DNA from: Alphaproteobacteria bacterium
GTDB taxonomy: Bacteria > Pseudomonadota > Alphaproteobacteria > Micropepsales > Micropepsaceae
Reading direction: 5' to 3'
DNA: 64,000 nucleotides
Assembly (NCBI GenBank): GCA_016792565.1
Contig: JAEUMK010000083.1
Span: 1 to 64,000 of the forward strand
Shown: one piece after another, positions 8,636 through 33,676 of the stretch
Layout: each line of letters begins with the position of its first letter
Numbering within the stretch: position 1 is the first letter of the stretch
The notes under the pieces: generated by a model
The model's input: only the letters and a program-made list of their open reading frames with translations
The model's database searches: none
Told to the model about the DNA's origin: nothing
Position numbers and translations under genes: made by a program

Positions 8636-8659
8636 CAAAGAGCAGTTCACGCTGAGACT

Positions 8660-8689: not shown

Positions 8690-8703
8690 GCCCGTTCTTT
8701 GCC

Positions 8704-8809: not shown

Positions 8810-8824
8810 TGGCCTGCCGCTTGC
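8810..8824 (+). promoter_or_regulatory. Sigma-54 promoter of flagellin 3
   Basis: TGGCCTG-CCGC-TTGC has correct GG-N10-GC spacing. The predicted start is near 8836. A hairpin, GCCGC-CGAAC-GCGGC (8841-8855), begins five bases later. The second hairpin and the CCAGAACGGA box of the other two leaders are absent here. Confidence 0.75.
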
Positions 8825-8879
8825 TCTGTGCGCGGTACTGGCCGCCGAACGCGGCGCCTGTCGAGCGTGGAGAATCCGG

Positions 8880-9713: not shown

Positions 9714-9742
9714 CGGCGCCTTTTCGCCGCTTGTCGTGCGCG

Positions 9743-9780
9743 CGGCCGCCGGCCCCACCCGGCGGCCGTTGCGTTTTTTT
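9743..9780 (+). terminator. Rho-independent terminator after flagellin 3
   Basis: A 10-bp stem (CGGCCGCCGG 9743-9752, loop CCCCAC, CCGGCGGCCG 9759-9768) is followed by TTGCG and a run of seven T at 9774-9780. It closes the flagellin block before the convergent pseC gene. Confidence 0.88.
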
Positions 9781-9796
9781 GAATTCCGTATTCCGG

Positions 9797-11005
9797 CTAG
9801 CCGGCGAGCGCCGCCGTCAGGGCGGCCGCAACGCGCGCCACGTCGCCCTCGGTCATCGCCGCGAAGAGCGGCAGCGAGAGGCAGCGGGCGTAGTAGGCGT
9901 CGGCGCCCGGCAGATCGAGCTCGGGATAGCGCGCGGCATAGTAGGGCTGGCGATGCACGGGGATGTAGTGGACCTGGCTGCCAATGCCGGCCTCGGCGAG
10001 GCGGCGCATCAGCGCCGCGCGGTCGATTCCCGCCGCGGCGAAATCGATCCGCGCGACGCAGAGATGCCAGGCCGCCATGCCGTGCGCCGGTTCCTCGACG
10101 AGCCGCAGTACCGGGGCGAGGGGAGCCAGCGCCTCGCGGTAGAGCGCCATCAGGCGGCGGCGCTGGCCGACGAAGCGCTGGAGCTTCCTCAGCTGGGAGA
10201 GCCCGAGGGCGCAAAGTATGTCGGGCGCGCGGTAGTTGAAGCCGGGTTCGCGCAGTTCATAGAACCAGGGATTGGGCGCGCCGTCGGCGCCGCGCGAGTC
10301 CGCCAGCGTGAAGGCGTCCGGCTCGCGCACCAGGCCATGGCTGCGGTCGCGGCGCATCGCCGCCGCGAGGGCGGCATCGCTGGCGGTGATCGCGCCGCCC
10401 TCGCCCATGGCGATCGTCTTGACCGGATGGAAGCTGAAGCAGGCCAGGTCGCTGTGGGCGCAGGCGCCGACCGGGCTCGCCGCCGGCCCTTGCGTGCCGC
10501 CGATAGCATGGCAGGCGTCCTCGACGATCCAGAGGCCCCAATTGCGCGCGATTTCGGCGATGCCGGCCATGTCGCACGAAGCGCCGTTGAGGTGGACCGG
10601 AAAGGCGGCACGGACCGAGGGCGGCGCGCGGCGAAGGGCGGCGAGGAGCGTCTCCGGCGTCATCAGCCCGGTTTCGGGATCGACGTCGGCGAAGACCACC
10701 TCGGCGTCGCAATATCGCACCGCGTTGGCGGTCGCGACGAAGGTGACGGAGGGTACGACCGCCGACTGGCAGCGGTCGAGCCGGATGGCGCGGGCCGCCA
10801 GATGCAGCGCCGCCGTTCCGTTGGCGCAGACGACCGCTTCGGCCGCACCCGTCGCCGCGGCGAGGGCGCTTTCGAACTGCTGCACCAGCGGACCGGTCGT
10901 GAGCATGGGCGAGAGCAGCGCTTCGCGCACGGCGTCGAGATCGTCTTCCTCGATGACCTGGCGGCCGTAGGGCAGGAAGCCCTGCACGTCGCCGGCCGCC
11001 TTCAC
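9797..11005 (-). CDS. pseC: UDP-4-amino-4,6-dideoxy-N-acetyl-beta-L-altrosamine transaminase PseC
   Basis: This encodes 402 residues from a GTG that overlaps the stop of pseB (GTGA); no ATG start is available near this point. It is a PLP-dependent DegT/DnrJ-type aminotransferase. The PLP lysine is K196 in SFHPVKT, with the VEDACHAIGG motif at 161-170. PseC converts the PseB product to the 4-amino sugar in the second step of CMP-pseudaminic acid synthesis in the cytoplasm. It ends in the gap after the flagellin terminator, so it is the last gene of the minus-strand sugar operon. Confidence 0.88.
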   Translation of the reverse strand: MKAAGDVQGFLPYGRQVIEEDDLDAVREALLSPMLTTGPLVQQFESALAAATGAAEAVVCANGTAALHLAARAIRLDRCQSAVVPSVTFVATANAVRYCDAEVVFADVDPETGLMTPETLLAALRRAPPSVRAAFPVHLNGASCDMAGIAEIARNWGLWIVEDACHAIGGTQGPAASPVGACAHSDLACFSFHPVKTIAMGEGGAITASDAALAAAMRRDRSHGLVREPDAFTLADSRGADGAPNPWFYELREPGFNYRAPDILCALGLSQLRKLQRFVGQRRRLMALYREALAPLAPVLRLVEEPAHGMAAWHLCVARIDFAAAGIDRAALMRRLAEAGIGSQVHYIPVHRQPYYAARYPELDLPGADAYYARCLSLPLFAAMTEGDVARVAAALTAALAG

Positions 11006-12108
11006 GGGAAGGCGTCCGTCAGAAGGGACTGAAGACCGCGCGCGTCGAGGGCATCGACGTTCCTGTCGCTGGCGTAGCAGAAGCCGTCCGCCACCTCGCG
11101 CGCCCCGGCGGCGGCGTATTCGGCGCGCAGCGTGCCCCAGGAGGGCAGGATCACGTAGCGGTCGTTCATCTCCAGCGTCTGGCGGGCGACATCCTCGGGG
11201 ATCATCACCTCGTGCAGCTTCTCGCCGGGGCGGATGCCGATGATGCGCTGGGGCATGCCAGGCGCCATCATCTCGGCGAGCTCCGTCATCTTGAGGCTGG
11301 GGATCTTGGGCACATAGATCTCGCCGCCGCGCATCATCGACATGGACGAGAGGACGAGATTCACGCCCTGGGGCAGGGTGATCCAGAACCGCGTCATGCG
11401 ATCGTCGGTGATGGGAAGGTCGGCGGCGCCCTCGGCGATCATCTTCTCGAACATCGGCACGACCGAGCCGCGCGAGCCGATGACATTGCCGTAGCGCACG
11501 ACCGAGAAGCGCGTGCCGTCGGAGCCGGCCAGATGGTTGGCGGCGACGAAGATCTTGTCGGAGGCGAGCTTGGTGGCGCCGTAGAGATTGACCGGATTGG
11601 CGGCCTTGTCGGTGGAGAGCGCCAGCACCTTCTTGACGCCCCGCGACAGCGCCGCGTGGACGACGTTCTCGGCGCCCAGGATGTTGGTGTGCACGCATTC
11701 GAGCGGATTGTACTCGGCGATCGGCACCTGCTTCATCGCGGCGGCATGGACGACATAGTCGACGTCGCGCATCGCCATCTCCAGGCGGTCGCGGCTGCGC
11801 ACGTCGCCGATGAAGAAGCGCATGAAGGGATAGCGCTCCTGCGGGAAGACCTGCGCCATCTCGAACTGCTTGAGCTCGTCGCGGCTGAAGATGATAAGCC
11901 GGCGCGGCTTGAACTCGGCGATGACGTGGCGCACGAAGGCCTGGCCGAACGAGCCGGTGCCCCCGGTGACGAGCACGGTCCTGTCGTTGAGGTCGATCGA
12001 GGGATTGCGGAAATCGCGCCGCGCGATCCACGACATCAGCCGCCCATAGGCCGGCGAGACGCCGGGCGCCGGGGGGCTGACTGAGACGGTCTTCAGGGAA
12101 GCGGTCAT
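11002..12108 (-). CDS. pseB: UDP-N-acetylglucosamine 4,6-dehydratase (inverting) PseB
   Basis: This encodes 368 residues. It has a Rossmann motif GGTGSFG at 49-55 and the PseB/FlaA1 catalytic set: T166, D167, K168 in LSTDKAA, then Y176 and K180. PseB dehydrates and epimerises UDP-GlcNAc in the first step of pseudaminic acid synthesis. Typical PseB proteins lack the first 40 residues seen here. An internal ATG at 12036 (residue 25) would shorten the extension, so the start is uncertain. A CtrA-like box at 12160-12174 lies upstream. It is coupled to pseC by a 4-base overlap. Confidence 0.9.
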   Translation of the reverse strand: MTASLKTVSVSPPAPGVSPAYGRLMSWIARRDFRNPSIDLNDRTVLVTGGTGSFGQAFVRHVIAEFKPRRLIIFSRDELKQFEMAQVFPQERYPFMRFFIGDVRSRDRLEMAMRDVDYVVHAAAMKQVPIAEYNPLECVHTNILGAENVVHAALSRGVKKVLALSTDKAANPVNLYGATKLASDKIFVAANHLAGSDGTRFSVVRYGNVIGSRGSVVPMFEKMIAEGAADLPITDDRMTRFWITLPQGVNLVLSSMSMMRGGEIYVPKIPSLKMTELAEMMAPGMPQRIIGIRPGEKLHEVMIPEDVARQTLEMNDRYVILPSWGTLRAEYAAAGAREVADGFCYASDRNVDALDARGLQSLLTDAFP

Positions 12109-12159: not shown

Positions 12160-12174
12160 TTAACAAGCGTTTAC
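12160..12174. promoter_or_regulatory. CtrA-like box upstream of pseB
   Basis: TTAA-CAAGCGT-TTAC fits TTAA-N7-TTAA with one mismatch and lies 52 bp before the pseB ATG. It overlaps the stop codon of the preceding gene, so it may be fortuitous. If real, it would tie sugar synthesis to the flagellar cell-cycle programme. Confidence 0.35.
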
Positions 12175-14151
12175 CCTGCCGATCTCCAGCGCATAGCGGA
12201 CGCGTCGGGTCGGCGAGGGCAGATCGGGGCGGCGCGTCTCGTCCATCTCCAGCGCCGAGAGCATCATGCGGCAGAAGGTCTGGCCGTGCAGCGTGCGGTG
12301 CTCGACGAGGCCGATGACGGCGGCGGAGGCGAGATCTGCGGTGAGGCGGATGGCGTTGACGCCGTCATCGAGGGCGAGGAGCCCCTCGGTCATGCCGACC
12401 CCGGCGCGGCACGAGATGAGGAACGAAACCGCCGCGCCGAGATCGACGGCGTGGCCCCACAGGGCGAAGCGTTCGAGGTCGCGGCCGCCATTGTGGGCCG
12501 CATAGGCGAGGTTCGGCAGGTCGAAGGCGTCGCTCTTCAGCGTCACATGGGCGAGGCGGAGCGAGCCCTTGCCCCAGTGCGGCCAGCGGAAGGTGAGATC
12601 GGTCTCGACGCGGGGGGCGTCCGGCGCGATGCGTAGCGTCTTTTCGATGGGGCCGAGCGGCGTCTCGATACGGGCGCTGACGACGATTCCGCCGTCCGGA
12701 CCGGAGGCCATCAGGGGGGCGCAGCGTTCGAGGTCGGTGACCTTGGGCTCGCCGGGGCCCTCGAAGACGCAATTGCCGGTGTACCAGTCGGCCGAGAGCG
12801 CGATGTCGTCGATCTCGCCATGGGCGAGGCCGCCGATCAGAGGGCGCTCGTTCGGGCGGCCCATGGCGGCGATGGCGAGGCCGCGGCGCTTGTCGAGGAC
12901 GAGGCGGAGCGACGGCGTCTCGATGAGGATGTGGCGGACATCCTGCTCGATGGCGGGCGTCGGACCCGTTGCGGCGATCCGGGTCGCCTTTCGCGGTTGC
13001 GGGGCCGGCAGGCGGGCAAGGAAGGCATCGAGTTCGGCGCGGAAGGCGGTCCAGCGCTTCCCGGTGATGTGGGTGCGGAAGTCGCTCGACCACAGGCGGC
13101 AGAGCGTGCGCCAGTCCTCGTCTGGGGAGTCCGGCCCCAAGGCGCGAAAGGCCTGGTGGCAGAGCGTGTTGACGGCGAGGTCGTCGCGGCCGGACGAGGC
13201 CCAGCGGGTGAGATTGTATTTGGGCTGCTTCTTCACCGGCACCGGGTTGGAGGGCGCCTCCAGCACCAGATCGTTGCCGGCATTGCCGCCCTGCGCGGCC
13301 TTCAGCGCGTCGCCGGGGAGCGCCAGCACGACGCCCCGCGCGGCGAGCGCCTTGAGGCCCTCGCCGACCCGCCGCCACTCGCCGATCGTCACCTGCTCTT
13401 CGGTGGCGAAGCGGCCGGGACGGAAGTCGAAGCACTCGGCGTCGTTGGTGTAGAGCGCCAGCACGCGATCGACCGGTCCGCGATGGCCGGCGACGAAATC
13501 GACATAGGCGTCGAGGTCGATATCGCCATGGGCGAGGCGCTGGAGCTTCTGGAAGGCGATGGTGTTGGACCACAGGAGATCGATGCAGCTGCCGTCCGCG
13601 CCGAGGGCGCGCTGGGGATGGTAGCGCCAGTGGCGGTTCCATTCCGGATGGTGGGCGGCGCAATCGTCCCAGTCCATGACGAGGGCGCGATAGCCCGCCT
13701 CGCGGTAGAGCGGCACGAGGCCGCCCGACCAGGCCTGCTCGTTGACGAGCGCGAGGTCGGGATCGACGTCGAGCAGGCGGCGATAGACATCTCGGCCGAG
13801 CGTCAGGTTCTTCAGGACCGCCTGCCAGGGCATCAGCGGGCCGATCGCCTGAGCATAGCCCGAGCCGACGAATTCGGCGCGGCCGGCGACGATGAGGCGC
13901 TTCAGCCGCGCGATCCATTCGGGGTCTATGTCCTCGATGAGTTCGAGGGTCAGGCCGGTCGCCTCGATGCCGAGCGGGATGCCGGCGTCGGCGAGGTCGA
14001 GCAAGGGATGGTAGCAGCGGGCGATGACGGCGGGGCGCTGTTCTTCCTCGATCGAGGAGAACATCAGATTGAGATGGAACAGCGCGTAGCCGGTGAGCGT
14101 CGCGGTGCGGCGCGGACGGACCGGGCGCGAGAGCGGTTCGACGAGGCTCAT
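12160..14151 (-). CDS. GH57-like glycoside hydrolase family protein
   Basis: This encodes 663 residues from the ATG that overlaps the stop of the upstream ATP-grasp gene (ATGA). The N-terminal 300 residues resemble the beta/alpha barrel of GH57 enzymes: ALFHLNLMFSSIE at the start, LVNEQAWSGG around E138 (a candidate nucleophile) and VMDWDD at 159-163. The C-terminal 300 residues look like a beta-rich domain. GH57 members act on alpha-glucans or alpha-galactosides, but the substrate here is unknown. Its place among sugar-biosynthesis genes suggests trimming or transfer on a modified glycan. Confidence 0.6.
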   Translation of the reverse strand: MSLVEPLSRPVRPRRTATLTGYALFHLNLMFSSIEEEQRPAVIARCYHPLLDLADAGIPLGIEATGLTLELIEDIDPEWIARLKRLIVAGRAEFVGSGYAQAIGPLMPWQAVLKNLTLGRDVYRRLLDVDPDLALVNEQAWSGGLVPLYREAGYRALVMDWDDCAAHHPEWNRHWRYHPQRALGADGSCIDLLWSNTIAFQKLQRLAHGDIDLDAYVDFVAGHRGPVDRVLALYTNDAECFDFRPGRFATEEQVTIGEWRRVGEGLKALAARGVVLALPGDALKAAQGGNAGNDLVLEAPSNPVPVKKQPKYNLTRWASSGRDDLAVNTLCHQAFRALGPDSPDEDWRTLCRLWSSDFRTHITGKRWTAFRAELDAFLARLPAPQPRKATRIAATGPTPAIEQDVRHILIETPSLRLVLDKRRGLAIAAMGRPNERPLIGGLAHGEIDDIALSADWYTGNCVFEGPGEPKVTDLERCAPLMASGPDGGIVVSARIETPLGPIEKTLRIAPDAPRVETDLTFRWPHWGKGSLRLAHVTLKSDAFDLPNLAYAAHNGGRDLERFALWGHAVDLGAAVSFLISCRAGVGMTEGLLALDDGVNAIRLTADLASAAVIGLVEHRTLHGQTFCRMMLSALEMDETRRPDLPSPTRRVRYALEIGRVNAC

Positions 14152-15380
14152 GCGGCGGCCTCGGCGCGGCAATCGAAGCGGATGGCAGCGACGGCGCGGG
14201 CGGCGTTGGCGCGGGCCTCCGCCAGCGTCGCGCCAGTGGCGAGCACCATCGCGGCGCGCGCGGCGCTGGAGGTGGCGGGCGGGATGACGTCGCCGGGGGC
14301 CTTGCTGAGGGTCAGTTCGAGGATGCCGGGCAGGGCGCGCGCGTCGTCCGCGCCGTTGATCGCGGCGATGCGCCCGGCGTGCGGAAAGACATAGCGCTGC
14401 ACGATCGGCCGTTCGAAGCGCGGCGTCAGGTCGGCCGGCGCGACGGGCTCGCCGAGCGCCAGCTTCATCACCGCGCCGACGAAATCGACGCCGGTCGAGA
14501 GCGGGATCTCGCGGGTGCAGAAATAGCCGCCCGAGAGGCGCGCGGCGATTTCGATAACATGCGCCTTGCCGTCGTGGACGACCATGTCGCCCTTGTAGTT
14601 GTGCTGCGCAATACCGAGGGCGCGGGCGGCGGCGGTGACGGTCGCCTCGACGTCGGCGCGGATGGCGGGCGCGACATGGCTGGGCAGGTCGCCGCCATTC
14701 TCGACGAACCACGGGGCGAAGCGATCGAGGAACTCGTAATTGCGGTCGCTGAAGCCCGGCGTGTAGCCGATGCCGTCCAGCAGGATCGACTCGGTCGAGA
14801 TCTGCGGCCCGGCGAGATAGGCCTCGACCATGACGCGACCGGTGGGGGACTGGGCCTTCGCCTCGGCATAGGCGGTTTCGGCGTCGCGCCCGGCGTTCAT
14901 GCGCTGCACGCCGCGTCCGCCGCGGCTGTCGACCGGCTTCACCACCAGATCGCGGCCGCGTTCGAGCAGCGCCAGCTGAAGGTCGGCGGCGTCGCGCAGC
15001 GGCGCATACCAGGGGATCGGAACGCCGTGCGCCTTGAGGCGGTCCTTCATGGCGAGCTTGTCCATCGCCAGATGGGCCGTTTCGGGGGAGAGGCCCCTGA
15101 GGCCGAGGCGCTGCGCCACGGCGGCGACGGTGTGGGGCACGTCGGCGCCCATGCAGATGACGCCGTCGATGGGGCGGACCGTGGCGGCGTAGCGCGCGGC
15201 GGCCTCGGCGGTGCCTTCGGCGTCGTAGGTCGAGACGACGAGACGGCCGTCGGCGAGCGCGAAGCCCGGCGCGTGCGGATCGCCGTCGCTGACGACGACA
15301 TGGTATCCGAGCTCGCGCGCGCGGGCGATGCCGTGGGTCGCCTCGATGCCGCCGCAGACGATGAGGATCGCCTTGCGCAT
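14148..15380 (-). CDS. ATP-grasp domain protein
   Basis: This encodes 410 residues. It has an N-terminal nucleotide-binding-like fold starting MRKAILIVCGGIEATHGIARA and a central ATP-grasp region with DLVVKPVDSRGGRGVQRM (the ATP-binding glycine loop). IEIAARLSGGYF is the metal/ATP-binding segment near residue 275. Such proteins (PurK- or biotin-carboxylase-like) join a carboxylate to an amine or thiol using ATP. The substrate is not evident. The start codon shares one base with the SDR stop (TGATG) and the end overlaps the GH57-like gene, so the three are co-translated. Confidence 0.75.
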   Translation of the reverse strand: MRKAILIVCGGIEATHGIARARELGYHVVVSDGDPHAPGFALADGRLVVSTYDAEGTAEAAARYAATVRPIDGVICMGADVPHTVAAVAQRLGLRGLSPETAHLAMDKLAMKDRLKAHGVPIPWYAPLRDAADLQLALLERGRDLVVKPVDSRGGRGVQRMNAGRDAETAYAEAKAQSPTGRVMVEAYLAGPQISTESILLDGIGYTPGFSDRNYEFLDRFAPWFVENGGDLPSHVAPAIRADVEATVTAAARALGIAQHNYKGDMVVHDGKAHVIEIAARLSGGYFCTREIPLSTGVDFVGAVMKLALGEPVAPADLTPRFERPIVQRYVFPHAGRIAAINGADDARALPGILELTLSKAPGDVIPPATSSAARAAMVLATGATLAEARANAARAVAAIRFDCRAEAAA

Positions 15381-16135
15381 CAGAAATAGAGCCCCCCGTT
15401 CACGTTGAGCGTCTGCGCCGTGATGTAGGACGCGGCGTCGGAGGCGAGGAAGGCGACCGCGTCGGCGACCTCGGCGGTGGTGCCGAGGCGCTTGAGCACG
15501 ATGTTCTGCGCCGCCTGCTGCACACTGGCGGCGGCCATGCCGGCGGCCGCCATGTCGGAGGCGATAAGGCCGGCGGCGACGACGTTGGAGCGCACGCCCT
15601 TGTCCGCGCCGAAGCGGGCGATCACCTGGGCGAGCGAGATGAGGCCGGCCTTCGAGGCCGCGTAGTGCGCGGTCCGCGGGCCGCCATACTGGCCGCTGAC
15701 CGAGCCGATATGGACGATCGAACCGCCGCCCGCCGCCGCGAGGCGCGGCAGAGCGAGCTGGCTGCAGACGAAGGGGCCCTTGAGGTTGACGGCGAGGATC
15801 TCGTCCCAGTCCGCGTCGCTCACCTTGTCGAAATCGGTCGGCTTGTTGATGCCGGCATTGTTGACGAGGACGCGCAAGGGGCCGAGTTCGCCTTCGGTAC
15901 GGTCGAGCGCGGCGGCGATGGCGGCGCGGTCGGTCACTTCCATCCGTGCGGCGAGCGCCCGGCCGCCGCGTTCGCAGATGAGGCGCACGACCTCGTTCGC
16001 CTCGGTTTCATTGCTGCGATAGGCGATGGCGACGGCGGCCCCGCCCTCAGCCAGACGCAGCGCGATGGCGCGGCCGATGCCGCGTCCGCCCCCGGTGACG
16101 AGGGCGGCGCGGCCGGCGAGATCGAGATCAGCCAT
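15380..16135 (-). CDS. Short-chain dehydrogenase/reductase
   Basis: This encodes 251 residues and is a classical SDR: cofactor loop TGGGRGIG at 14-21, NNAG at 92-95, and the catalytic S145, Y158 and K162 (YAASK). R40 after the second strand suggests NADPH use. It is FabG-like in sequence, but its position between a transketolase and an ATP-grasp gene suggests it acts on a sugar keto group made by this operon. It overlaps the transketolase C-terminal gene by 8 bases. Confidence 0.85.
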   Translation of the reverse strand: MADLDLAGRAALVTGGGRGIGRAIALRLAEGGAAVAIAYRSNETEANEVVRLICERGGRALAARMEVTDRAAIAAALDRTEGELGPLRVLVNNAGINKPTDFDKVSDADWDEILAVNLKGPFVCSQLALPRLAAAGGGSIVHIGSVSGQYGGPRTAHYAASKAGLISLAQVIARFGADKGVRSNVVAAGLIASDMAAAGMAAASVQQAAQNIVLKRLGTTAEVADAVAFLASDAASYITAQTLNVNGGLYF

Positions 16136-17093
16136 GACGCTTGCGCTTCAGTGCGCGCTTCGCGGCGGCGGCGATGTGGGGGGCGGTGAGGCGGTACTTC
16201 TCCGCCAGCTCGTCCGGCTCGCCGGATTCGCCGAAGACGTCTTCGAGGCCGACGAACTCGACCGGACAGGGCCGGGCGCGGACCAGCGCCTCGGCGACCG
16301 CACCGCCGAGGCCGCCGATGGTGTTGTGATCCTCGGCGGTGACGATGGCTCCGGTCTCCTCGGCGCAACGCGCGACGAGATCGGCGTCGATGGGCTTGAT
16401 CGTCGCCATGTTGACGACGCGGGCGGAGATGTTCTCGGCGGCGAGCAGCTTCGCCGCTTCGAGCGCGCGGGCGACCTCGACGCCGCAGGCGATGAGGGTC
16501 ACGTCGTGACCGTCGCGCAGGATGTGGCCCTTGCCGATGCGGAAGACATGGCCATTGGCATACACGGAGCACGCCGGGCTTCGGCCGGTGCGCATATAGA
16601 CGGGTCCGTCGAAATCGACGGCGGCTTGGGTCGCCAGCGCCATCTCGTGCGGGTCGGCGGGCGAGAGGACGGTCATGCCGGGAATGGCGCGGAAGGCGGC
16701 GAGGTCTTCCAGCGCCTGGGCCGAGCCGCCATCCGGGCCGACATCGAGGCCGGGATGCGAGGCGACGATCTTCACGTTGCGCTTGGCGTAGGCGATGGAG
16801 AGGCGCGCCTGCTCCACCGCGCGCAGGCAGAAGACCGCGAAGGTGGTGACGACGGGGATGAGGCCGGTCGCCGCCATGCCGCCCGCCACCGCCATCATGT
16901 TCTGCTCGGCGATGCCGAACTGGAAGAAGCGCGAGGGATGCGCCTTGCGGAAGTGGTGCAGGCCGGTGCCGCCGGCGATGTCGGCGTCGAGGGCGACGAG
17001 GCGCTCGCGCGTCTCGGCGAGGGTGGCGAGCGCCTTGCCGAAGGCTTCGCGCAACGAGTCGCCGGAGGCGGCGATGAGGGATGGGGCGCTCAT
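16128..17093 (-). CDS. Transketolase-like, C-terminal subunit
   Basis: This encodes 321 residues covering the pyrimidine-binding domain and the C-terminal domain of a split transketolase. The catalytic glutamate is E63 in FGIAEQNM, and the C-terminal domain begins near residue 195. With the adjacent N-terminal subunit it should form a thiamine-diphosphate enzyme that moves two-carbon ketol units. Split transketolases occur in archaea and in specialised bacterial sugar operons. It starts one base after the stop of the N-terminal subunit gene. Confidence 0.88.
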   Translation of the reverse strand: MSAPSLIAASGDSLREAFGKALATLAETRERLVALDADIAGGTGLHHFRKAHPSRFFQFGIAEQNMMAVAGGMAATGLIPVVTTFAVFCLRAVEQARLSIAYAKRNVKIVASHPGLDVGPDGGSAQALEDLAAFRAIPGMTVLSPADPHEMALATQAAVDFDGPVYMRTGRSPACSVYANGHVFRIGKGHILRDGHDVTLIACGVEVARALEAAKLLAAENISARVVNMATIKPIDADLVARCAEETGAIVTAEDHNTIGGLGGAVAEALVRARPCPVEFVGLEDVFGESGEPDELAEKYRLTAPHIAAAAKRALKRKRHG

Positions 17094-17094: not shown

Positions 17095-17979
17095 TCAGGC
17101 CATCCATGTCGCGATGTCGGTTTCGGTCGCGCCGAGTTCGGCCAGCGCCTGGCGGGTTTCGTCGGGCTTCATCTTCACGCTGCCGTGCCAGAGCGGGCGG
17201 TCCTCCATATAGGAGACGCCCTTGCCCTTGATCGTGTGGGCGATGACGATGGTCGGGCGGTCGTGCGTGGCGGCGGCCTCCGCAAGCGCCGCGAGGATGG
17301 CGGCGCGGTCGTGGCCGTCGATCTCGATGGCGTGCCAGCCGAAGGCTCGCCACTTCGCGGCGAAGGGCTCCAGCCCCATGATGTTGGCGTTGCGGTCGTC
17401 GGATTGGAGCTTGTTGTAGTCGACGATGGCGCAGAGATTGGAGAGGCCGTGATGGGCGGCGCACATCGCGCCCTCCCAGACCTCGCCTTCCTGGCATTCA
17501 CCGTCGCCGAGCATCGCATAGACGCGCGCGGCGACGTATTGGTGGCGCAGCCCCAGCGCCATGCCGATGGCGACCGAGAAGCCCTGGCCGAGCGAGCCGG
17601 TGCTGGTCTCGCTCAAGGGAAGATCGAGGACGTGCGGGTGGCCCTGCGACGCGGTGCCGATGCGCCGCAGCGCGAGCGGCACCGCGTCGGCGACATAGCC
17701 CATCGCCGCCCAGACGGCGTAGAGCGCGGGCGCGGCGTGGCCCTTCGAGAGGACGAAGCGGTCGCGGGCCGGATCGTCCGCCGTACCGCCGGGAATGTTG
17801 AGTTCGGCACCGTAGAGGACGGCGAGAAGATCGGCCGCCGAGAGCGCACCGCCGGGATGGCCGGAGCCGGCACGATAGATGCCGGCGATCGCCAATTGCC
17901 GCGTTCGCGCGGCGATCGCCGCGAGACGTGCGTGGACGCGATCCTGATCCTGGCGGGCGGCGAGAGAGATGGCGGACAT
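17095..17979 (-). CDS. Transketolase-like, N-terminal (thiamine-diphosphate) subunit
   Basis: This encodes 294 residues. It has the thiamine-diphosphate/metal motif GDG at 158-160 through N189 (GDGECQEGE...VDYNKLQ), plus H41 in GSGHPGG and H81 in SKGHAAPALY, as in transketolase. ATG 17979 is the first start after the intergenic TTAA-rich stretch. Being separate from primary metabolism genes and inside a flagellin-sugar island, it is unlikely to be the pentose-phosphate enzyme. It more likely builds or rearranges an unusual sugar skeleton, although the donor and acceptor are unknown. Confidence 0.88.
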   Translation of the reverse strand: MSAISLAARQDQDRVHARLAAIAARTRQLAIAGIYRAGSGHPGGALSAADLLAVLYGAELNIPGGTADDPARDRFVLSKGHAAPALYAVWAAMGYVADAVPLALRRIGTASQGHPHVLDLPLSETSTGSLGQGFSVAIGMALGLRHQYVAARVYAMLGDGECQEGEVWEGAMCAAHHGLSNLCAIVDYNKLQSDDRNANIMGLEPFAAKWRAFGWHAIEIDGHDRAAILAALAEAAATHDRPTIVIAHTIKGKGVSYMEDRPLWHGSVKMKPDETRQALAELGATETDIATWMA

Positions 17980-18044
17980 GAGGCGGGCCCAGAGGTTGCG
18001 CCGCGCACTATCGTTAACGGCGGTTACCGCCGCGTTAATGTCGA

Positions 18045-19196
18045 TTAACGGGCGAAGGCGGCGAGACCGGCGGCGGCGATGCGGTCGAGATCGCCTTCGG
18101 CGAAGGGGACGGGGTTTTCCTTCGCCAGAGTCGTGTCGCGCGCGGCGGTCGCCAGCAGCGCCTTGGCCGAAGGCTGGCGCGCGGCGAAGGCGGTACGGAT
18201 GAGATCGTCGTGTCCCAGCGCCGCGAAGGCGCCCTCCCAGGCGGCGATGAAGCGCGCGACGCTCCACGGCGCGCCGTCGGGCGCGGCGCCGTCGAGGGCG
18301 TGCATCAGCGGCGCGACATGGGGGCGGACCGCATCGGCATAGCTTTCGAGCGCCGGGCGCAGGAAGACGCGCAGGGTGAGCGGATGGGCGAGCGGCGATT
18401 GCGCGGCAAGCGACTCGCCCAGCGAATGGACGAGGCCGGTGCGGACGTTCGAGATCGCAACGCCCGCCATGGCCGAGGCTTCCATGAGCGCGAGCAGCGT
18501 CGCGCCGCCCGGCTCTGCGCCCGCGGCGAGGGTGGGCAGGGCAGCGAGGATGCGCGGCAGGAAGCCCTGCGCGAGCGCGCCGGTGAACGGGCTGCGCTCG
18601 CCGCGCGCGATGTGCGTTTCCCACAGATGCATCGCCGCGTCGAAGGCGCCGAGCAGAAGGCGCGGCGCGCCGGAGCCTTGCAGCAGCAAGGGATCGAGCA
18701 GCGTCAGGTCGGGGACGATCGACCACGAGCGGGTCGAAACCTTGATGCCTGTCACGGGGTCGGCGGCGATGAAGAAGCGGCTGGTCTCCGACCCCGAGCC
18801 GGCGGTCGTCGGCGCGGCGACGAGCTGCGGCAGGATCGCGCCGCGCGGCCGGTCGCGGATGTCGAGCGTGCCGAAGCGCAATTGCGCGGCGACCGCCTTG
18901 GCGGCGTCGATGGTCGCGCCGCCGCCGAGCGCCAGGATCGCGGCGGGCGGCGTGGCGGCGATGTCCTCGGCAATGGCAGCGATGTCGTCGCGGTTCGGCT
19001 CGCGGGCGACCAGCGCGTGCGGACCGCCGGCGCGGCGCACGAGCGGATGACCGGCGAAGGCGCGATCGGCGACGACGGCGAGGCCGCCGGTCCCGCGCTC
19101 GGCAAGCCAGGTCTCAAGCACGCCCTCGCCGGCGAGGATGCGGCCGGGCCAGTGGAAACCCTTGCGCGCCGCCGTATTGAAGAAGCGCTCGTTCAT
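18045..19196 (-). CDS. Iron-containing alcohol dehydrogenase family protein
   Basis: This encodes 383 residues from the ATG that overlaps the stop of the FkbM gene (ATGA); a longer in-frame ORF starts at 19229. It has the family features ALGGGATIDAAKAVA (nucleotide loop), PTTAGSGSETS and a DAAMHLWET metal-ligand-like segment. One typical later His cluster appears as LVHSLGESLA. Members reduce or oxidise alcohols, including sugar-derived ones, and related folds include dehydroquinate synthase. It lies 65 bp upstream of the split transketolase genes, so these probably act in one pathway. Confidence 0.8.
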   Translation of the reverse strand: MNERFFNTAARKGFHWPGRILAGEGVLETWLAERGTGGLAVVADRAFAGHPLVRRAGGPHALVAREPNRDDIAAIAEDIAATPPAAILALGGGATIDAAKAVAAQLRFGTLDIRDRPRGAILPQLVAAPTTAGSGSETSRFFIAADPVTGIKVSTRSWSIVPDLTLLDPLLLQGSGAPRLLLGAFDAAMHLWETHIARGERSPFTGALAQGFLPRILAALPTLAAGAEPGGATLLALMEASAMAGVAISNVRTGLVHSLGESLAAQSPLAHPLTLRVFLRPALESYADAVRPHVAPLMHALDGAAPDGAPWSVARFIAAWEGAFAALGHDDLIRTAFAARQPSAKALLATAARDTTLAKENPVPFAEGDLDRIAAAGLAAFAR

Positions 19197-20314
19197 CGCC
19201 GCGCGTCGTGGACGCAGAAGAGCTCGCACTCATAGGCGGCGGCCGGATGGTGGCCGACATGGATGCGATAGCCGGGGCAGAGCGCATCGAGCAGTGCCGG
19301 AATCGTCCACAGATGCTCGGGCGCGTGATAGGCGGCGATGGCGAGGCCGGGCTTGTCGCGGTTGAGGATGGCGCGCGCGCCCTCCAGCGCGGCGGGGTCA
19401 TGACCCTCGATGTCGATCTTGATGAAGTCGACGCGATCGTGTGCGAAGAGGCGGTCGAGCGTCTCGATGCGAATCTGGGCGCGCGCGCCTGGCTTGCCGC
19501 GCAGCGTGGCGCGTGCATCGACGCCCTCGTTCTCGCTGTCGATCTCCGCCGACATGGGCGCGGCCCCGGCCCCGAACGGCACGGCGGCGATGCGGCCGCC
19601 GAAGGGATGCGTTGCGATGGTCGCTTCCAGCGCCGCGCGGTTCTGCGGCAACGGCTCCAGCGCCGAGACGCGCGCTTCGCCGCCGAGGCGCTTCAGATAG
19701 GCGACGGCGGAGTCGCCGTCATAGGCCCCGACATCGACGATGTGGTCGCCCGCGAACGGCCCGACGCCCTCGTAGTCGTAGAAGCCCTTGAGCTTCGGGT
19801 TCCGGGCGAGGCGCAGCGGGTCCATCGTCCAGCGATAGGCGATGAGCGCCTCGACATAGGCGCGCGAGGCTTCGTCGGCGAGGCGGGCGGGGAGGCCGGC
19901 GAGCGCTTCTTCCGCGCCGGCGAAGGCTGCGGCCCCGAAATGGCCGGCGAACATCGGCGAGACGAAGGGAAAGACCGCCTCCGCCGGAATACCCAGGTCG
20001 CGCAACTGGGCGGCGATTTCGACCTGATAGACCGAGGCGATGACGATGGCGGTCGTGCCGTCGATCATCGCCGGAAGCGCGGCAGGGGCGACGACCGGCG
20101 CGCCGCGGAAGATCGTGCCCTGCTTCGCCGCGCCGTTGTCGGCGAAGGCGGCGAGCGCGATGCCGTAGCGGGTGAGGATTTTCTCGACCTCGACGGCGCT
20201 CGCACCCGCGCCGAAGAGGATAGCGCGCCTGAAAGGGGCGAGCGCCCCGATGCCGCGCGGCGCGCCGTAGCGCGCAAGACCGGCGGCCGGGCCGCGCTTC
20301 GCGGCGGCGCTCAT
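19193..20314 (-). CDS. FkbM-family methyltransferase with N-terminal nucleotide-binding-like domain
   Basis: This encodes 373 residues. Residues about 30-120 form a Rossmann-like segment (AILFGAGASAVEVEKIL) similar to PglD-type N-terminal domains. Residues about 185-360 are the FkbM methyltransferase, with SAM motif HIVDVGAYDGDSA at 191-203 and VDFIKIDIEGHD. FkbM enzymes O-methylate sugars and polyketides. It is joined to both neighbours by 4-base ATGA overlaps. Methylation of a flagellar sugar is the simplest reading of the context. Confidence 0.8.
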   Translation of the reverse strand: MSAAAKRGPAAGLARYGAPRGIGALAPFRRAILFGAGASAVEVEKILTRYGIALAAFADNGAAKQGTIFRGAPVVAPAALPAMIDGTTAIVIASVYQVEIAAQLRDLGIPAEAVFPFVSPMFAGHFGAAAFAGAEEALAGLPARLADEASRAYVEALIAYRWTMDPLRLARNPKLKGFYDYEGVGPFAGDHIVDVGAYDGDSAVAYLKRLGGEARVSALEPLPQNRAALEATIATHPFGGRIAAVPFGAGAAPMSAEIDSENEGVDARATLRGKPGARAQIRIETLDRLFAHDRVDFIKIDIEGHDPAALEGARAILNRDKPGLAIAAYHAPEHLWTIPALLDALCPGYRIHVGHHPAAAYECELFCVHDARR

Positions 20315-21255
20315 GGCTTCACCGCGACCACCGTCGCCTCGCGGCCGAGACCGGCCGCGGCGAGCGCGCCGTAGAGGCGGCGGCGCACCTCGCCGATGCC
20401 GGCGGCTTCGAAGGCGAGGTCGAAGTTCATCCGCTTGGCGTGGCAGGCCCGGCCGAGCGCGGCGTCGGCGACATAGTCGTCGCCCATCAGCAGGAAGGCC
20501 TCCATCGGGAAGCTGGTGAGGCGCTCGACCGGGCGCAGGCCCAGCCGGACGAGGAGCGCTTCGAGGCTGTCGAAATCGAAGTAGTTGAGGTGGTGCGGCG
20601 GGGCGATCCACCATGGCGCATGGCCGCGCCCGTCGCGCGCGGCGATCTGGAGCGGCGAGAAATCGTTGGGCACGGTGAGGCAGAGAACGCCGCCGGACTT
20701 CAGCAGATCGCAGGCGATGCGGAGTGCGCCGATGGGATCGGCGAGATGCTCCAGCACATTGGTCGCGGCCACGGCGTCGGCCTCGGGCAGGCCGTGCGCG
20801 GCGGCGTCCGCCAGCGTGCGATTGTAGACGGTGAGACCGCGTCCTTGCGCGAAGGCGGCGGCCTGGCGCGAGGGCTCGATGCCGATGGCGGTCCAGCCCT
20901 TGGCCGTCGCGGCGTCGAGAAAGAAGCCCGGCCCCGAGCCGAACTCGATCAGCGTTCCCGGGCCGCGGCCGAGGGCGCGGGCGATGGCGTCGAGTCGGTC
21001 GTCCTGAACGAGTTGGGCCCAGCCCTGGTCGGCGCCCGCGTCGGCGAGATAGGTCGGTTTGGCGTCGCGGTAATAGGCCTCGGCGTATTCGGCTTCGAGC
21101 GCTGCTGGGTCGGGCAGCGGCACGGCGTGACGGAAGCCGCAGGCGCGGCAGGCGATGATGTCCATGCCGTTGGCGCGGCCGTGGACCGGGCCGCCATGGC
21201 CCTGCCAGACGATCTCTTCCTTCGGGTGCGCGTCCTCGCGCAGCGCGGCGCTCAT
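20311..21255 (-). CDS. Class I SAM-dependent methyltransferase
   Basis: This encodes 314 residues and is the first gene of the minus-strand sugar operon. It begins with a short region carrying IACRACGF (a CxxC pair), then has SAM motif I LIEFGSGPGFFLDAA near residue 102 and NVLEHLADP typical of Methyltransf_23-type enzymes. The layout is like sugar C- or N-methyltransferases, although the zinc-site region has only one CxxC. It overlaps the FkbM gene. The 102-bp gap to the divergent neuB-like gene must hold promoters for both directions. Confidence 0.8.
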   Translation of the reverse strand: MSAALREDAHPKEEIVWQGHGGPVHGRANGMDIIACRACGFRHAVPLPDPAALEAEYAEAYYRDAKPTYLADAGADQGWAQLVQDDRLDAIARALGRGPGTLIEFGSGPGFFLDAATAKGWTAIGIEPSRQAAAFAQGRGLTVYNRTLADAAAHGLPEADAVAATNVLEHLADPIGALRIACDLLKSGGVLCLTVPNDFSPLQIAARDGRGHAPWWIAPPHHLNYFDFDSLEALLVRLGLRPVERLTSFPMEAFLLMGDDYVADAALGRACHAKRMNFDLAFEAAGIGEVRRRLYGALAAAGLGREATVVAVKP

Positions 21256-21357: not shown

Positions 21358-22215
21358 ATGCCGGTCCATTTCTGCGCCGAAGTCTCGTCCAATCACGGGA
21401 GCGACCTTGAGCGCTGTCTCGCCTTTGTGGATGCCGCCGCCGAGGCGGGCTGCGATTCGGTGAAGTTCCAGCTCTTCCGCGTGAGGGAGCTGTTCGCGCC
21501 GGAAATCCTGGCGCGCAGCGAGAAGCACCGGGCGCGCGAGCAATGGGAGCTGCCGGCGGACCTGCTGGAGCCTATCGCGGCGCACTGCGCGGTACGGGGC
21601 GTCGAGTTCGCCTGCACCCCCTTCTATCTGGAGGCGGTCGCCGCGCTTCTGCCCTACGTCGCCTTCTACAAGATCGCCTCCTACGAGCTGTTGTGGGACG
21701 ACCTGCTGGCGGCCTGCGCGGCGACCGGCAAGCCCGTCGTGCTGTCGACCGGCATGGCGACGCTGCCGGAGATCGTGCACGCCGTCTCGGTGCTGCGCGG
21801 CGCGGGTGCGTCCTCGATCCGCCTGCTGCACACGGTCTCGGCCTATCCGACGCCGCCGGCGGAGGCCAATCTCGCCTCCATCGACATCATCCGCCGCGCC
21901 ACCGGCTGTCCGGTCGGCTGGTCGGACCACACGGTCAGCCCCGGCGTGCTGCACCGGGCGATCCATCGCTGGGGCGCGGGCTTCGTCGAGTTCCACATCG
22001 ACCTGGACGAGACGGGGGCGGAGTATGCGAGCGGCCATTGCTGGCTGCCGGGCCAGATATCCGAAGTCATCAAGGCGGTGCGCGAGGGCGAGGCGGCGGA
22101 CGGCTCGGGCCTGAAAACCGCCGCGCCCTCGGAACTTGCCGACCGTGACTGGCGCGCCGACCCGCTGGACGGGCTGCGGCCGCTGCGCCATGTCCGGGCA
22201 GGGTGGACGCCATGA
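21358..22215 (+). CDS. NeuB-family nonulosonate synthase-like protein without SAF domain
   Basis: This encodes 285 residues and matches the TIM-barrel condensing domain of NeuB/PseI/LegI proteins: FCAEVSSNHG at the start, AGCDSVKFQLF, YKIASYELLWDD, STGMATLPEI and GWSDHTVSPG. These enzymes condense phosphoenolpyruvate with a hexosamine to give a nine-carbon acid. Typical members have about 340-350 residues with a C-terminal SAF domain, which is missing here. The protein ends ADRDWRADPLDGLRPL. The ATG of the next gene overlaps its TGA. It may have altered substrate range or be a smaller subfamily. Confidence 0.8.
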   Translation: MPVHFCAEVSSNHGSDLERCLAFVDAAAEAGCDSVKFQLFRVRELFAPEILARSEKHRAREQWELPADLLEPIAAHCAVRGVEFACTPFYLEAVAALLPYVAFYKIASYELLWDDLLAACAATGKPVVLSTGMATLPEIVHAVSVLRGAGASSIRLLHTVSAYPTPPAEANLASIDIIRRATGCPVGWSDHTVSPGVLHRAIHRWGAGFVEFHIDLDETGAEYASGHCWLPGQISEVIKAVREGEAADGSGLKTAAPSELADRDWRADPLDGLRPLRHVRAGWTP

Positions 22216-24020
22216 CGGCCCCGCGCATCGCGGCGATCGTCCAGGCGCGCATGTCGTCGTCGCGCCTGCCGGGCAAGTCGCTGACAAAGATCGCCGGTCG
22301 GCCGCTGATCTGGCATGTCGTGCACCGGCTGAAAGCGTCGCGGCGGATCAGTGAGATCGTGCTGGCGACGACGGTCAACCCGGCCGATGACGTGCTCGCC
22401 GACTGGGCGGCGACCGAGGGCGTCGCCTGCGTGCGCGGATCCGAGGACGACGTGCTCGGCCGCTTCGCGCTGGCGGCGGAAGCCTGCGATCCCGACATCA
22501 TCGTACGGGTCAACGCCGACGCGCCGCTGATCGACGCGGCTTTCGTCGATGCGATGATCGACGCCATGATCGCCGAAGACGCCGACTTCGTGATGCTGGC
22601 GCCGGGCGCGCGGGCGCTGCACGACGGCGTCGACCCGATGAGCCGCAGGGCGCTCAACCTGATGCTCGCAGAGGCGCGCGAAGACCCGGTAGCGCGCGAG
22701 CATGTCACCGGCTGGCTGAAGCTGAATTCCCACCGCATCAAGGTCGCTCGCATGACGCCCGATCCCGCCTACGATTTCGAAGGCGCGCGCCTCTCCGTCG
22801 ACACGCCGGCCGACGCGGCCTTCATCGAGGCGGTCTACGACCGGCTGAAGGCGCAGGCGGGCGAGGCCTCGCTGACCGATCTGATCGCCCTGCTGCGGCG
22901 CGACACGGCGCTGCTCGCGATCAACGGCCATGTCCGCCAGAAGGCGGCGACGCAGACGGCGGGCACGGTGGTGATCCGCTGCGACGGCGGGCATGCGCTT
23001 GGGCTGGGGCATGTGCGGCGCTGCCTGCAACTCGCCGCGGCGCTGCGCGATGGTGCGGGCTTGGGCGTCGTCTTCGCGACGATGGGCGAGACGGACGCGA
23101 TGGCGCAGGTGCGCGCGGCAGGCTTCCGGGTGATCGAGAAGCCGGCGGCGGCGGGCGAGCGCGACTGGATCGCCGCCGTGCTGCACGAGACGGGCGCGGC
23201 GGCACTCATTCTCGACATCCGCACGGACTTGTCCGAGGCCGAGGTGCGGAGCCTGCGCGACACGGCCGGACTGATCGTCGTGCTTGACGACGGCTCGCCG
23301 CGCCGGCTGGCGGCGCACCTGGCGGTCTATCCGCCGGTGCCCCAGACGCGGGCGCTGGCCTGGCCGAACGGCGAGACGGATCTCTGCATCGGTTGGGGCT
23401 GGGCGGTGATGGGCGGCGCGGTCTGGCGCGGCGCGCGGCCTCTGGAGTCGGGCCGCGCGACGTTGCGCGTGATGGTCGCGATGGGCGGCAGCGATCCGCA
23501 AGGCCTGACGCAGCGGGCGGTCAAGGCGGTGGCCGCGGCAGGCCGACGGGTGACGCCGGTCGTGGCGATCGGTCCGGCGGTGCCGTTTCCCGAAGGCGTG
23601 GCCGATGCCTGTCAGGCGGCGGCCCCGGACGCCGAAATCCTGTTCGCGCCTCCCTCGCTGATGGAGGTGGCGGCGACCTGCGATCTCGCGGTCATCGCCT
23701 ATGGCGTCACCGCCTTCGAGTGCGCGCATGTCGGTACGCCGGCGATCTATCTCGGGCTCACCGCCGATCACGCCGCCTCGGCGCAGGGTTTCGACGACGC
23801 CGGGATCGGCATCAATCTCGGCGTCGCTTCGGCGCTGAACGAGCGCAAGATCGCCGATGCGGTGCTGGGACTCGCGGCCGACGGCGAGCGGCGGCGGGCG
23901 ATGGCGGCGGCCGGGCGGCTGGCGATCGACGGGCGGGGCGCGGAGCGTCTGGCGCAGGAGATCGCGCGCCGGGTCGAGGCGACGGCGTCGGCGGCGATCA
24001 GCCGCGCGAAAGCAGGCTGA
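22212..24020 (+). CDS. Fusion of SpsF/NeuA-type cytidylyltransferase and PseG-like protein
   Basis: This encodes 602 residues from the ATG overlapping the neuB-like stop. Residues 1-240 are a nucleotidyltransferase (IVQARMSSSRLPGKSL and VNADAPLIDAAFVD), as in CMP-sugar synthetases of the SpsF/PseF type. Residues about 255-590 resemble PseG, the UDP-sugar hydrolase or GT-B-like enzyme (GHALGLGHVRRCLQLA and MVAMGGSDPQGLT). In the pseudaminic acid pathway PseG removes UDP and PseF activates the product with CMP, so one polypeptide could cover both steps. It ends within the convergent TPR gene. Confidence 0.82.
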   Translation: MTAPRIAAIVQARMSSSRLPGKSLTKIAGRPLIWHVVHRLKASRRISEIVLATTVNPADDVLADWAATEGVACVRGSEDDVLGRFALAAEACDPDIIVRVNADAPLIDAAFVDAMIDAMIAEDADFVMLAPGARALHDGVDPMSRRALNLMLAEAREDPVAREHVTGWLKLNSHRIKVARMTPDPAYDFEGARLSVDTPADAAFIEAVYDRLKAQAGEASLTDLIALLRRDTALLAINGHVRQKAATQTAGTVVIRCDGGHALGLGHVRRCLQLAAALRDGAGLGVVFATMGETDAMAQVRAAGFRVIEKPAAAGERDWIAAVLHETGAAALILDIRTDLSEAEVRSLRDTAGLIVVLDDGSPRRLAAHLAVYPPVPQTRALAWPNGETDLCIGWGWAVMGGAVWRGARPLESGRATLRVMVAMGGSDPQGLTQRAVKAVAAAGRRVTPVVAIGPAVPFPEGVADACQAAAPDAEILFAPPSLMEVAATCDLAVIAYGVTAFECAHVGTPAIYLGLTADHAASAQGFDDAGIGINLGVASALNERKIADAVLGLAADGERRRAMAAAGRLAIDGRGAERLAQEIARRVEATASAAISRAKAG

Positions 24021-25488
24021 GGGTTTTCTCGAAGACCTGACGCCATTGGCCGGCATGCTCGGGCGTCACGCAGACGACCGAAGGCATGAACGGCTCGCGG
24101 TCCGCGCCGAGACTGGTCCACGAGCGGTAGTGCAGCACCTTGTAGGTCGGGACGCCGAGCGCGCCGCTGATGGAGGCAACGGCGGTGGGTGCGGAGACGA
24201 CGCCGTCGAGGACCGAGAGCATCGCCGCGGTGCGGTCGAGCTCGTCGCGCTGGTCGAGCGCCGGCGGAAGATGCAACGTCTTGCCGGACAGGCCTTCCAG
24301 CGTCGCGATCTCGCCGGGCTCCGCGCCGTACTGGGCGACGACGACCGAGGCATCGAGCTTGCCGACGAATTGGGCCCAGCGGGCGAGCGGAGCGTATTGG
24401 CTGTCGCGGAGGCCGCCCTTGAGGCCGGAGCGCCAGGAGATGCCGATGGCGGGCTTGGGACCCAGCGTCTCGCGCCAGGCGCGCCAGCGCGCCGCTTCGG
24501 CGGCATCGGGCTTGAGGAAGGGAAGGGGTGCGGCAGGCTTGCCGCCGCACATCAGGGGCAGGCTGCCCAGTTCGATTGACAGCGCCGCGCCATGGTTCCA
24601 GCCATTGTCGGTGCTGAGCGCGACGCCCTCGCGCCGCACGGTCTGCGCCCCGACCGTGACGGCGGGGAGCGAGCGGGCGAGAAGGGCCGCGAGGCGCGGA
24701 TCGCATTCGAGAGCGAGCGGACCGCCGGCGAGCATCTGGGGCAGGAAGGCAGCGAAGGCGATCTGGTCGCCGACGCCCTGTTCGGTCATCACGAGGAGCG
24801 GGCGGCCGTTGCGCGCTTCGCCCTGCCAGCGCGGCGGCGCGTTCCGGCGCTCGATGGCGCGGCCGGGAATCTTCAGCCGCCACTCATAGTCGCGCCAGCC
24901 GGCCTCGACGTCGCCCTTTGAAAGCAGAGCCAGCGCACGGTTGACGCGCAGCTGGGCGTTTCCAGGCGCGCGGCGCACCGCCTCGTCGTAGAGCGCCAGC
25001 GCTTCGGTGATGCCGCCGGCATCGAAGACGAGGTCGGCGAGATTGCCGCGCGCCTCGACCGAGTCGGGATTGAGGCGCAGGGCCTCGCGATAGAAGGTCT
25101 CGGCGTTGTCGACGTCGCCGGTCTCGCGCACCGCATTGCCGAGCGCCAGCCAAAGGCCCATGTGCTCGGGCGCCCGGGCGAGCGCGTCGCGCAACGATTC
25201 GACGGCGTCGCCATGGCGCATCATCGCCGTCAGAGCGCGCGACAGGGCGATCGTCGCTTCGTGCCGTTCCGGAGCGACGCGCAGTGTCTCCTCGAAGAAG
25301 CGGGCGGCGGCCTGGTGCAGGCCGATCCGCGCGGCCGCCTCGCCCAGCGCGAAGAGGACGGCGGGGTCTTCGGGGTTTCCCGCCAGCGCCCGCTCCAGTG
25401 CTGCGATGGCGTCGGTGTGTCGGCCGGCCTCGAGGGCGGCGATTCCCTGATCGTAGTGGCGCATGGCGGAGGGTGAAGCGGTGGCCAT
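23998..25488 (-). CDS. TPR-glycosyltransferase, second FlmG-like paralogue
   Basis: This encodes 496 residues. TPR units occupy about residues 5-200 (DPAVLFALGEAAARIGLHQAAARFFEE and later repeats). A GT-B-like domain follows, with MTEQGVGDQIAF matching the GEQGLGDEVMF motif of the protein at 3411-5144. In both, the C-terminal half carries GISWRS or GICWRS and a SAPTA segment, so they are paralogues. It sits at the end of the sugar island and overlaps the fusion gene by 23 bases in convergent orientation. It probably transfers the island's sugar to flagellin, but the acceptor could differ. Confidence 0.75.
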   Translation of the reverse strand: MATASPSAMRHYDQGIAALEAGRHTDAIAALERALAGNPEDPAVLFALGEAAARIGLHQAAARFFEETLRVAPERHEATIALSRALTAMMRHGDAVESLRDALARAPEHMGLWLALGNAVRETGDVDNAETFYREALRLNPDSVEARGNLADLVFDAGGITEALALYDEAVRRAPGNAQLRVNRALALLSKGDVEAGWRDYEWRLKIPGRAIERRNAPPRWQGEARNGRPLLVMTEQGVGDQIAFAAFLPQMLAGGPLALECDPRLAALLARSLPAVTVGAQTVRREGVALSTDNGWNHGAALSIELGSLPLMCGGKPAAPLPFLKPDAAEAARWRAWRETLGPKPAIGISWRSGLKGGLRDSQYAPLARWAQFVGKLDASVVVAQYGAEPGEIATLEGLSGKTLHLPPALDQRDELDRTAAMLSVLDGVVSAPTAVASISGALGVPTYKVLHYRSWTSLGADREPFMPSVVCVTPEHAGQWRQVFEKTLSLLSRG

Positions 25489-32998: not shown

Positions 32999-33676
32999 TC
33001 AGTTCAGCGCGACGTCTTGCGGCGAGACAGTGACCGCACCGGCGCCGGTGATGACGGCTTCGATCTGCTTGTGAGACTGGACATTGACGACCGGCACGGT
33101 GTCGCCGAGCCCGCCGTTCGCCATCGCCTTGCCGCGGGCCGTCAGTTCGACGCCGGGAACACGGTAGACGACTGTGACCGCGTCGCCCTTGCGGACCACG
33201 ACGGGCTTCTCGAAGTCGCCCTCGCGCAGAGCTAGGCCGGCGCGGAGCTGGCGCCGGGCGCTGAAGCCGACGACGTCGTCTGAGTCGGTGAGGGCGCCGC
33301 GCGCCAGGCGAGACTGGGCGATGCGGGTCAGGATGACGTCCTCGGCGTTGGCGATCTCGCCGGCTCTGAGGGTGCGCGTCAGCACCGGCACATCGACGCC
33401 CGGCTCGACCTTGCCCTGAAGGCCAAAGAGGCGGCCGCTGGCCAGCTTGATCTGGACGACGAAGCGTCCCGAAGCCGCGTCGTAGCGGGCCGAGGCGACG
33501 GCGAGGGTTTCGGGATCGATGCCCGACGGGACCCGGCCGACGATCGAGACAGCCGCATCGCCCGGTGCGCCTTCGGCGATGAGGGCGTCGAGCAGGGCCT
33601 CTTCCATCGTCAGCGCCGCTGCCGGCGCGGCGGCGCCGACCAGAAGCGCGGCGGCGAAGATCAGTTTGCGGATCAT
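32999..33676 (-). CDS. flgA: Flagellar P-ring assembly chaperone FlgA
   Basis: This encodes 225 residues with a signal peptide (MIRKLIFAAALLVGAAAP). The C-terminal SAF-type domain includes LARGALTDSDDVVG, LRAGLALREGDFEKP and a PVVNVQSHKQIEAVITG ending. FlgA assists polymerisation of FlgI in the periplasm. It starts three bases after flgG and is ordinary in length for the family in alphaproteobacteria. Confidence 0.93.
   Translation of the reverse strand: MIRKLIFAAALLVGAAAPAAALTMEEALLDALIAEGAPGDAAVSIVGRVPSGIDPETLAVASARYDAASGRFVVQIKLASGRLFGLQGKVEPGVDVPVLTRTLRAGEIANAEDVILTRIAQSRLARGALTDSDDVVGFSARRQLRAGLALREGDFEKPVVVRKGDAVTVVYRVPGVELTARGKAMANGGLGDTVPVVNVQSHKQIEAVITGAGAVTVSPQDVALN

Follow-up and report, generated by a model that had tools for sequence, protein, structure and literature searches.

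The C-terminal SAF (antifreeze-like) domain of Neisseria meningitidis NeuB caps the active site of the partner subunit, and Arg314 is the sole SAF residue to contribute directly to that site (PMC6795526). The solved NeuB chains of this organism (1xuu, 4ipi) and the PseI chain of Campylobacter jejuni (8h2c) have 333-351 residues and include this domain. The closest studied case to the protein described here is SfmA (SO_3261) of Shewanella oneidensis MR-1, published in 2013, a 290-aa NeuB-domain protein required for flagellin modification and encoded in an operon of the same type as ours; the putative operon, sfmABCDE, also specifies a TPP enzyme, an SDR, a methyltransferase, and an ATP-grasp protein (PMC3765264). 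Deleting sfmA left flagellin near its unmodified mass and the cells non-motile; deleting sfmE, the ATP-grasp gene, lowered flagellin mass slightly less, and swimming was retained (PMC3765264). The S. oneidensis glycan combines a 274-Da Pse-like unit with an O-methylated part of 236, 250, or 264 Da, and its NMR signals are consistent with beta-pseudaminic acid; clear PseH, PseG, PseI, and PseF orthologues were reported missing, and, in the authors' view, assembly of the modification precedes its transfer (PMC3765264). Subtracting the formulae published there gives C11H20O7, free of nitrogen, for the 264-Da outer part. Our literature search, which covered mainly freely available papers, found no paper describing a NeuB without SAF; no mention of the lacking domain was found in PMC3765264, and PMC7371886 and PMC13317340 yielded nothing useful.

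The window, i.e., the whole 64,000-nucleotide stretch analyzed, contains on its forward strand an ATG-initiated reading frame for a 285-aa protein (Table 1) whose sole Pfam domain is NeuB (PF03102; residues 24-252, E 3e-55). The score of 187.7 bits against a gathering score of 22.1 places the protein in the NeuB family. No Pfam match to SAF was found in the 285 residues, so that the two-domain NeuB/PseI architecture is absent; 30 of the 42 proteins in the comparison set for this domain matched SAF. The full profile alignment ends at residue 263, and the 22 residues beyond it leave no room for SAF, a domain of 63 positions, which also speaks against a SAF domain that is present but divergent. 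The protein comprises a barrel (~1-248), a helix (257-265), and then the tail motif W265-R266-A-D268-P269-L-D271-G272-L-R274-P275. The stop codon (TGA, 22213-22215) overlaps the start codon of the downstream gene (ATG, 22212-22214) in the tetranucleotide ATGA. The original prediction of a 285-residue NeuB barrel without SAF, followed by a gene starting inside its stop codon with no frame-shifted SAF sequence downstream, was thus borne out.

Table 1. Position, strand, and basis of assignment of the SAF-less synthase gene and its neighbors in the window
Feature	Coordinates	Strand	Basis or remark
PseC	9797..11029	-	TIGR03588 450 bits, above NCBIfam cut-off; start not fixed
PseB	11002..12036	-	TIGR03589 503 bits, above NCBIfam cut-off; start not fixed
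GH57-like protein, ~650 aa, conserved in SAF-less loci	12160..14142	-	start not fixed
ATP-grasp ligase with LAL_C2 domain (SfmE-like)	14148..15380	-	domain search
SDR reductase (SfmC-like)	15380..16135	-	domain search
Transketolase C-terminal subunit	16128..17093	-	domain search
Transketolase N-terminal subunit	17095..18012	-	start not fixed
Iron-containing alcohol dehydrogenase family protein	18045..19229	-	domain search
FkbM-family methyltransferase	19193..20290	-	start not fixed
SAM-dependent methyltransferase	20311..21255	-	domain search
SAF-less NeuB-family synthase (SfmA-like)	21358..22215	+	ORF, Pfam, structure prediction
Fused cytidylyltransferase (CTP_transf_3) and PseG-like domain	22212..24020	+	alternative GTG start 22203

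A SAF domain could in principle come from elsewhere, either from another protein acting in trans or through a mixed dimer with a SAF-bearing NeuB. A six-frame search of the whole source genome gave two SAF matches, FlgA (window positions 32999-33676) and CpaB (on another contig, L001), both named by NCBIfam models above cut-off; since these are the only matches, no frame-shifted or stand-alone SAF protein was found in this genome, and the 285-aa protein is also its only PF03102 protein. When 10 genomes whose single NeuB belongs to the clade described below were searched in the same way, 26 SAF-containing places were located, all with another defining domain (10 CpaB/RcpC, nine FlgA, six galactarate/altronate dehydratase, and one DRL oxidoreductase), so that 26 of 26 belong to other families. 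A complementing partner was sought in the source genome and these 10 genomes and none was found. One arrangement favors the trans option: a gammaproteobacterial bin encodes, immediately upstream of its SAF-less NeuB, a long NeuB whose C-terminus is divergent (L069, about 9000-10850; L150 denotes this region too). We nevertheless consider supply in trans very improbable. In 10 of 24 additional clade-bearing genomes, including that of Shewanella marisflavi, there was no further PF03102 match; the remaining 14 had two to five, the second one in G071 being below cut-off.

The barrel active site is largely intact. Nine of the 11 N. meningitidis barrel active-site residues listed in PMC6795526 align to an identical residue, and each of the nine is kept in 99-100% of 81 SAF-less proteins. 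The Asn184 position is Ser in 81/81 SAF-less proteins, and Asn74 is matched by Ser where the alignment is loose; the 11-residue comparison excludes Phe288 and Arg314, which fall past the end of the alignment. The AlphaFold2 model had a mean pLDDT of 96.9, with the tail predicted to be ordered. Foldseek and VIA grouped it with NeuB, PseI, SpsE, and 6ncs, with DAHP and KDO8P synthases ranking lower. It shares the barrel fold of C. jejuni PseI (VIA Z 31.1) and N. meningitidis NeuB (Z 30.7-31.0), along with most of their barrel active-site residues, at ~25% identity. The top VIA match was 6ncs, N-acetylneuraminic acid synthetase of Leptospira borgpetersenii (Z 32.5, rmsd 4.6, 264 residues aligned, 29% identity), whose solved chain—as distinct from its gene—has 285 residues, without room for a full SAF domain; flagellin glycosylation occurs in Leptospira (PMC13144727). 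The expected reading is that the window protein is a working PEP-condensing enzyme. Because the clade lacks SAF Arg314, it must either replace this residue or manage without it.

The short length, judged by sequence comparison, is not a sequencing truncation, because orthologues share the same end point and the same tail motif. Apart from the window protein, this holds for 20/20 full-length orthologues from the same class (61-84% identity), which were collected by searching related genomes with the whole protein and hence were unselected for the tail; two matches cut by contig ends (L025, L026) were left out of the count. A contig scan with two peptide patterns gave 313 relatives, of which the best 80 were kept. 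All 80 were 280-297 aa long with no SAF domain, and 78 matched the tail pattern, their C-termini lying 7-21 residues beyond it, although one of the scan patterns contained WRADPxDG, which biases the set in part toward the tail; L079 and L097 have Thr instead of Ala in the pattern. The clade tail consensus is W-R-x-D-P-x-D-G-x-R-P, and W265, R266, D268, P269, D271, G272, R274, P275, and R280 were invariant in 81 aligned clade proteins. In the same 81 proteins, segment 263-275 ranked second in conservation among 273 13-residue windows. Record titles place relatives in Pseudomonadota, Bacteroidota (a Chitinophagaceae bin), Chlorobiaceae, desulfobacterial and Geobacteraceae bins, Firmicutes, Verrucomicrobia, Actinobacteria, Nitrospinota, Nitrospirae, and Gemmatimonadetes; most of these records are metagenome bins, so an individual label could be mistaken. 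Within the window's class, 10 of 385 sampled genomes had a clade member at E <= 1e-60.

Alignment of the tail to the SAF active-site loop with hhalign gave a weak score of 14.0 (shuffle mean 8.2, with 2/100 column shuffles as high) and set the SAF Arg position on Asp268, where there is no arginine; an earlier multiple alignment had instead pointed to Arg274-Pro275 as the counterpart of the SAF arginine. Given the weak score and the Asp268 placement, we make no claim that the tail is a vestige of SAF in which the catalytic arginine is retained. VIA alignments with the N. meningitidis chains had rmsd values of 2.1-2.2 across residues 1-248, and only those with 6ncs and 8h2c (rmsd 4.6 and 3.9) reached residue 278. 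These alignments are suggestive, and only that, of a tail positioned over the active site.

A quick-search tree of 71 proteins, built on columns with at least 60% occupancy (which should exclude the SAF part), put 29/29 rows of the SAF-less clade on one branch (SH-aLRT 100, stem length 2.16), as expected from the proposal of a distinct SAF-less subfamily; the deep forks were weakly supported, and the clade's neighbor in the tree is a long-branch row. That absence of SAF by itself marks this subfamily was sustained only in part, since eight other short NeuB proteins (L144-L149, L154, L163) grouped on a separate branch (support 80) nested among the SAF-bearing proteins. Absence of SAF is therefore, on these sequences, not unique to the clade, and it arose, or persisted, at least twice. 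Like the clade, the second group ends before the SAF position; unlike the clade, it has no W-R-x-D-P tail in the C-termini compared. The eight loci had no ATP-grasp, GH57, ThDP, or methyltransferase neighbors, five SDR neighbors, and one CMP-transferase neighbor.

The link to the sfm system runs through a S. marisflavi homologue (L111), which lies in the SAF-less clade and whose operon has the gene order of the S. oneidensis sfm operon; it is via this gene order and the protein sizes that SO_3261 itself is tied to the clade. The L111 operon is followed by GH57-like and cytidylyltransferase genes, and upstream are genes for FlgT and an MptE-like protein, MptE being the domain of Maf proteins. 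A gene for a B12-binding radical SAM protein (L111, 19371-20807, forward strand) also comes after the S. marisflavi operon. The window protein shares a single branch with the Shewanella homologue and has the length (280-297 aa) and tail motif of the clade, and the window contains the characteristic neighbors of SfmA-like members, i.e., a ThDP enzyme, an SDR, a methyltransferase, and an ATP-grasp ligase. The Shewanella ThDP enzyme is of the acetolactate-synthase type, whereas that in the window is a split transketolase. As the SAF-less branch has a studied member, its kind is already known.

Gene neighborhoods were counted for the 47 clade loci with at least 9 kb on both sides (33 of the 80, with shorter flanks, were excluded) and for 20 SAF-bearing control loci from the same phylum, which were top-scoring NeuB matches rather than a random draw. 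In raw counts that ignore kinship among loci, clade loci exceeded SAF-bearing ones for neighboring genes encoding ATP-grasp (43/47 vs 0/20), GH57-like (39/47 vs 0/20), CMP-transferase (42/47 vs 1/20), methyltransferase (36/47 vs 0/20), SDR (39/47 vs 4/20), PseG (33/47 vs 1/20), and PseB (31/47 vs 8/20) proteins; PseC was the reverse (24/47 vs 17/20). The original prediction had tied SAF-less members to transketolase islands. A transketolase neighbor was indeed present at 30/47 clade loci vs 1/20, but 9/47 (vs 0/20) carried an acetolactate-synthase-type ThDP enzyme instead, and for any ThDP enzyme the counts were 39/47 vs 1/20. We conclude that the SAF-less NeuB branch is real and widespread, with a tail and a set of neighboring genes of its own.

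Three consecutive flagellin-like genes (6273-9713, forward strand), two of which were scanned by NCBIfam, adjoin the sugar island in the window. TPR-repeat proteins (3411-5144 and 23998-25488, both on the reverse strand) flank it; as a guess, these two may be FlmG-like flagellin glycosyltransferases.

Might the window protein be an ordinary pseudaminic acid synthase acting on the usual diacetamido sugar, with a dispensable SAF lid and neighbors that act afterwards? The conserved barrel active site would suit such an enzyme, and the second short NeuB branch and the 285-residue 6ncs chain suggest that a SAF-free form may be viable. On the other hand, the protein scores below the NCBIfam equivalog cut-offs for both PseI (TIGR03586, 142.2 of 340.25 bits) and N-acetylneuraminate synthase (TIGR03569, 159.5 of 399.65 bits), its clade has a long stem, and linkage to ATP-grasp and ThDP genes is strong. 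PseH, moreover, had no match in the source genome at E <= 0.001, in a search whose control matched 13/14 control genomes, only one of them above cut-off. These features make an ordinary synthase unlikely.

The SAF-less NeuB is the only nonulosonate synthase candidate found in a genome with PseB, PseC, a CMP-transferase/PseG-like protein, and flagellin, because it is the only PF03102 protein there. We therefore predict that it is probably the PEP-dependent, pseudaminic-type nonulosonate synthase in a flagellin glycan pathway of the SfmA type and represents a NeuB subfamily that has no SAF lid. In such a pathway, PseB and PseC, assigned by family, would make a UDP-4-amino sugar; the ThDP enzyme and SDR would build a polyhydroxy acid, the methyltransferases would O-methylate it, and the ATP-grasp ligase would join it to the 4-amine of the sugar, replacing PseH. 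From their families, the PseG domain would release the sugar, the SAF-less NeuB would use its conserved barrel site to condense it with PEP, and the fused CMP-transferase would activate the condensation product. If the acceptor carries a bulky acyl group, the full SAF lid of a partner subunit would obstruct it, and the invariant W-R-x-D-P-x-D-G-x-R-P tail may take over the remainder of the lid's job. The different or larger substrate suggested in the original prediction is plausible given the gene neighborhood and the published Shewanella mass data; both the bulky acceptor and the role of the tail as a minimal lid are our inference. The partial effect of the sfmE deletion means that acylation may not be required before the NeuB step, and counts against its being obligatory there. 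As for acyl groups elsewhere, the Treponema denticola glycan has a mass of 450.2 (PMC9481697). Subtracting 274.1 leaves 176.1, which fits C7H12O5 and serves as a lead only; a literature search turned up no paper that identifies the acyl group in this species.

The SAF-less enzyme might instead make the nitrogen-free acyl chain, by condensing PEP with an aldehyde to a 2-oxo-3-deoxy acid, which would then be reduced by the SDR, methylated by a methyltransferase, and attached by the ATP-grasp ligase. The genes for these three enzymes do keep it company, the C11H20O7 outer part could come from a reduced PEP aldol product, and sfmA to sfmE lie in one putative operon (PMC3765264). Weighing against this role are the absence of another PF03102 protein from the source genome and 10/24 others, where PseB, PseC, PseG-like, and CMP-transferase proteins would be left in need of a core synthase, and the S. 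oneidensis NMR signals that fit beta-pseudaminic acid (PMC3765264). We regard it as quite improbable. Returning to the predicted nonulosonate synthase, a broader proposal is that the clade represents a separate nonulosonate route in many phyla, in which an ATP-grasp ligase loads a ThDP/SDR/methyltransferase-derived acid onto the amino sugar before extension, and the resulting bulky sugar is accepted by a NeuB that has a short replacement in place of the lid; this we put forward tentatively, as a possibility rather than an expectation.

If these interpretations are correct, the NeuB active site works without the SAF lid, and the role of the lid becomes directly testable. Loss of the lid would then identify a widespread branch, from whose genes acyl-decorated flagellar sugars could be predicted, and the tail motif together with ATP-grasp and ThDP neighbors would provide a genome-level marker for glycans that are known from few mass-spectrometry studies.
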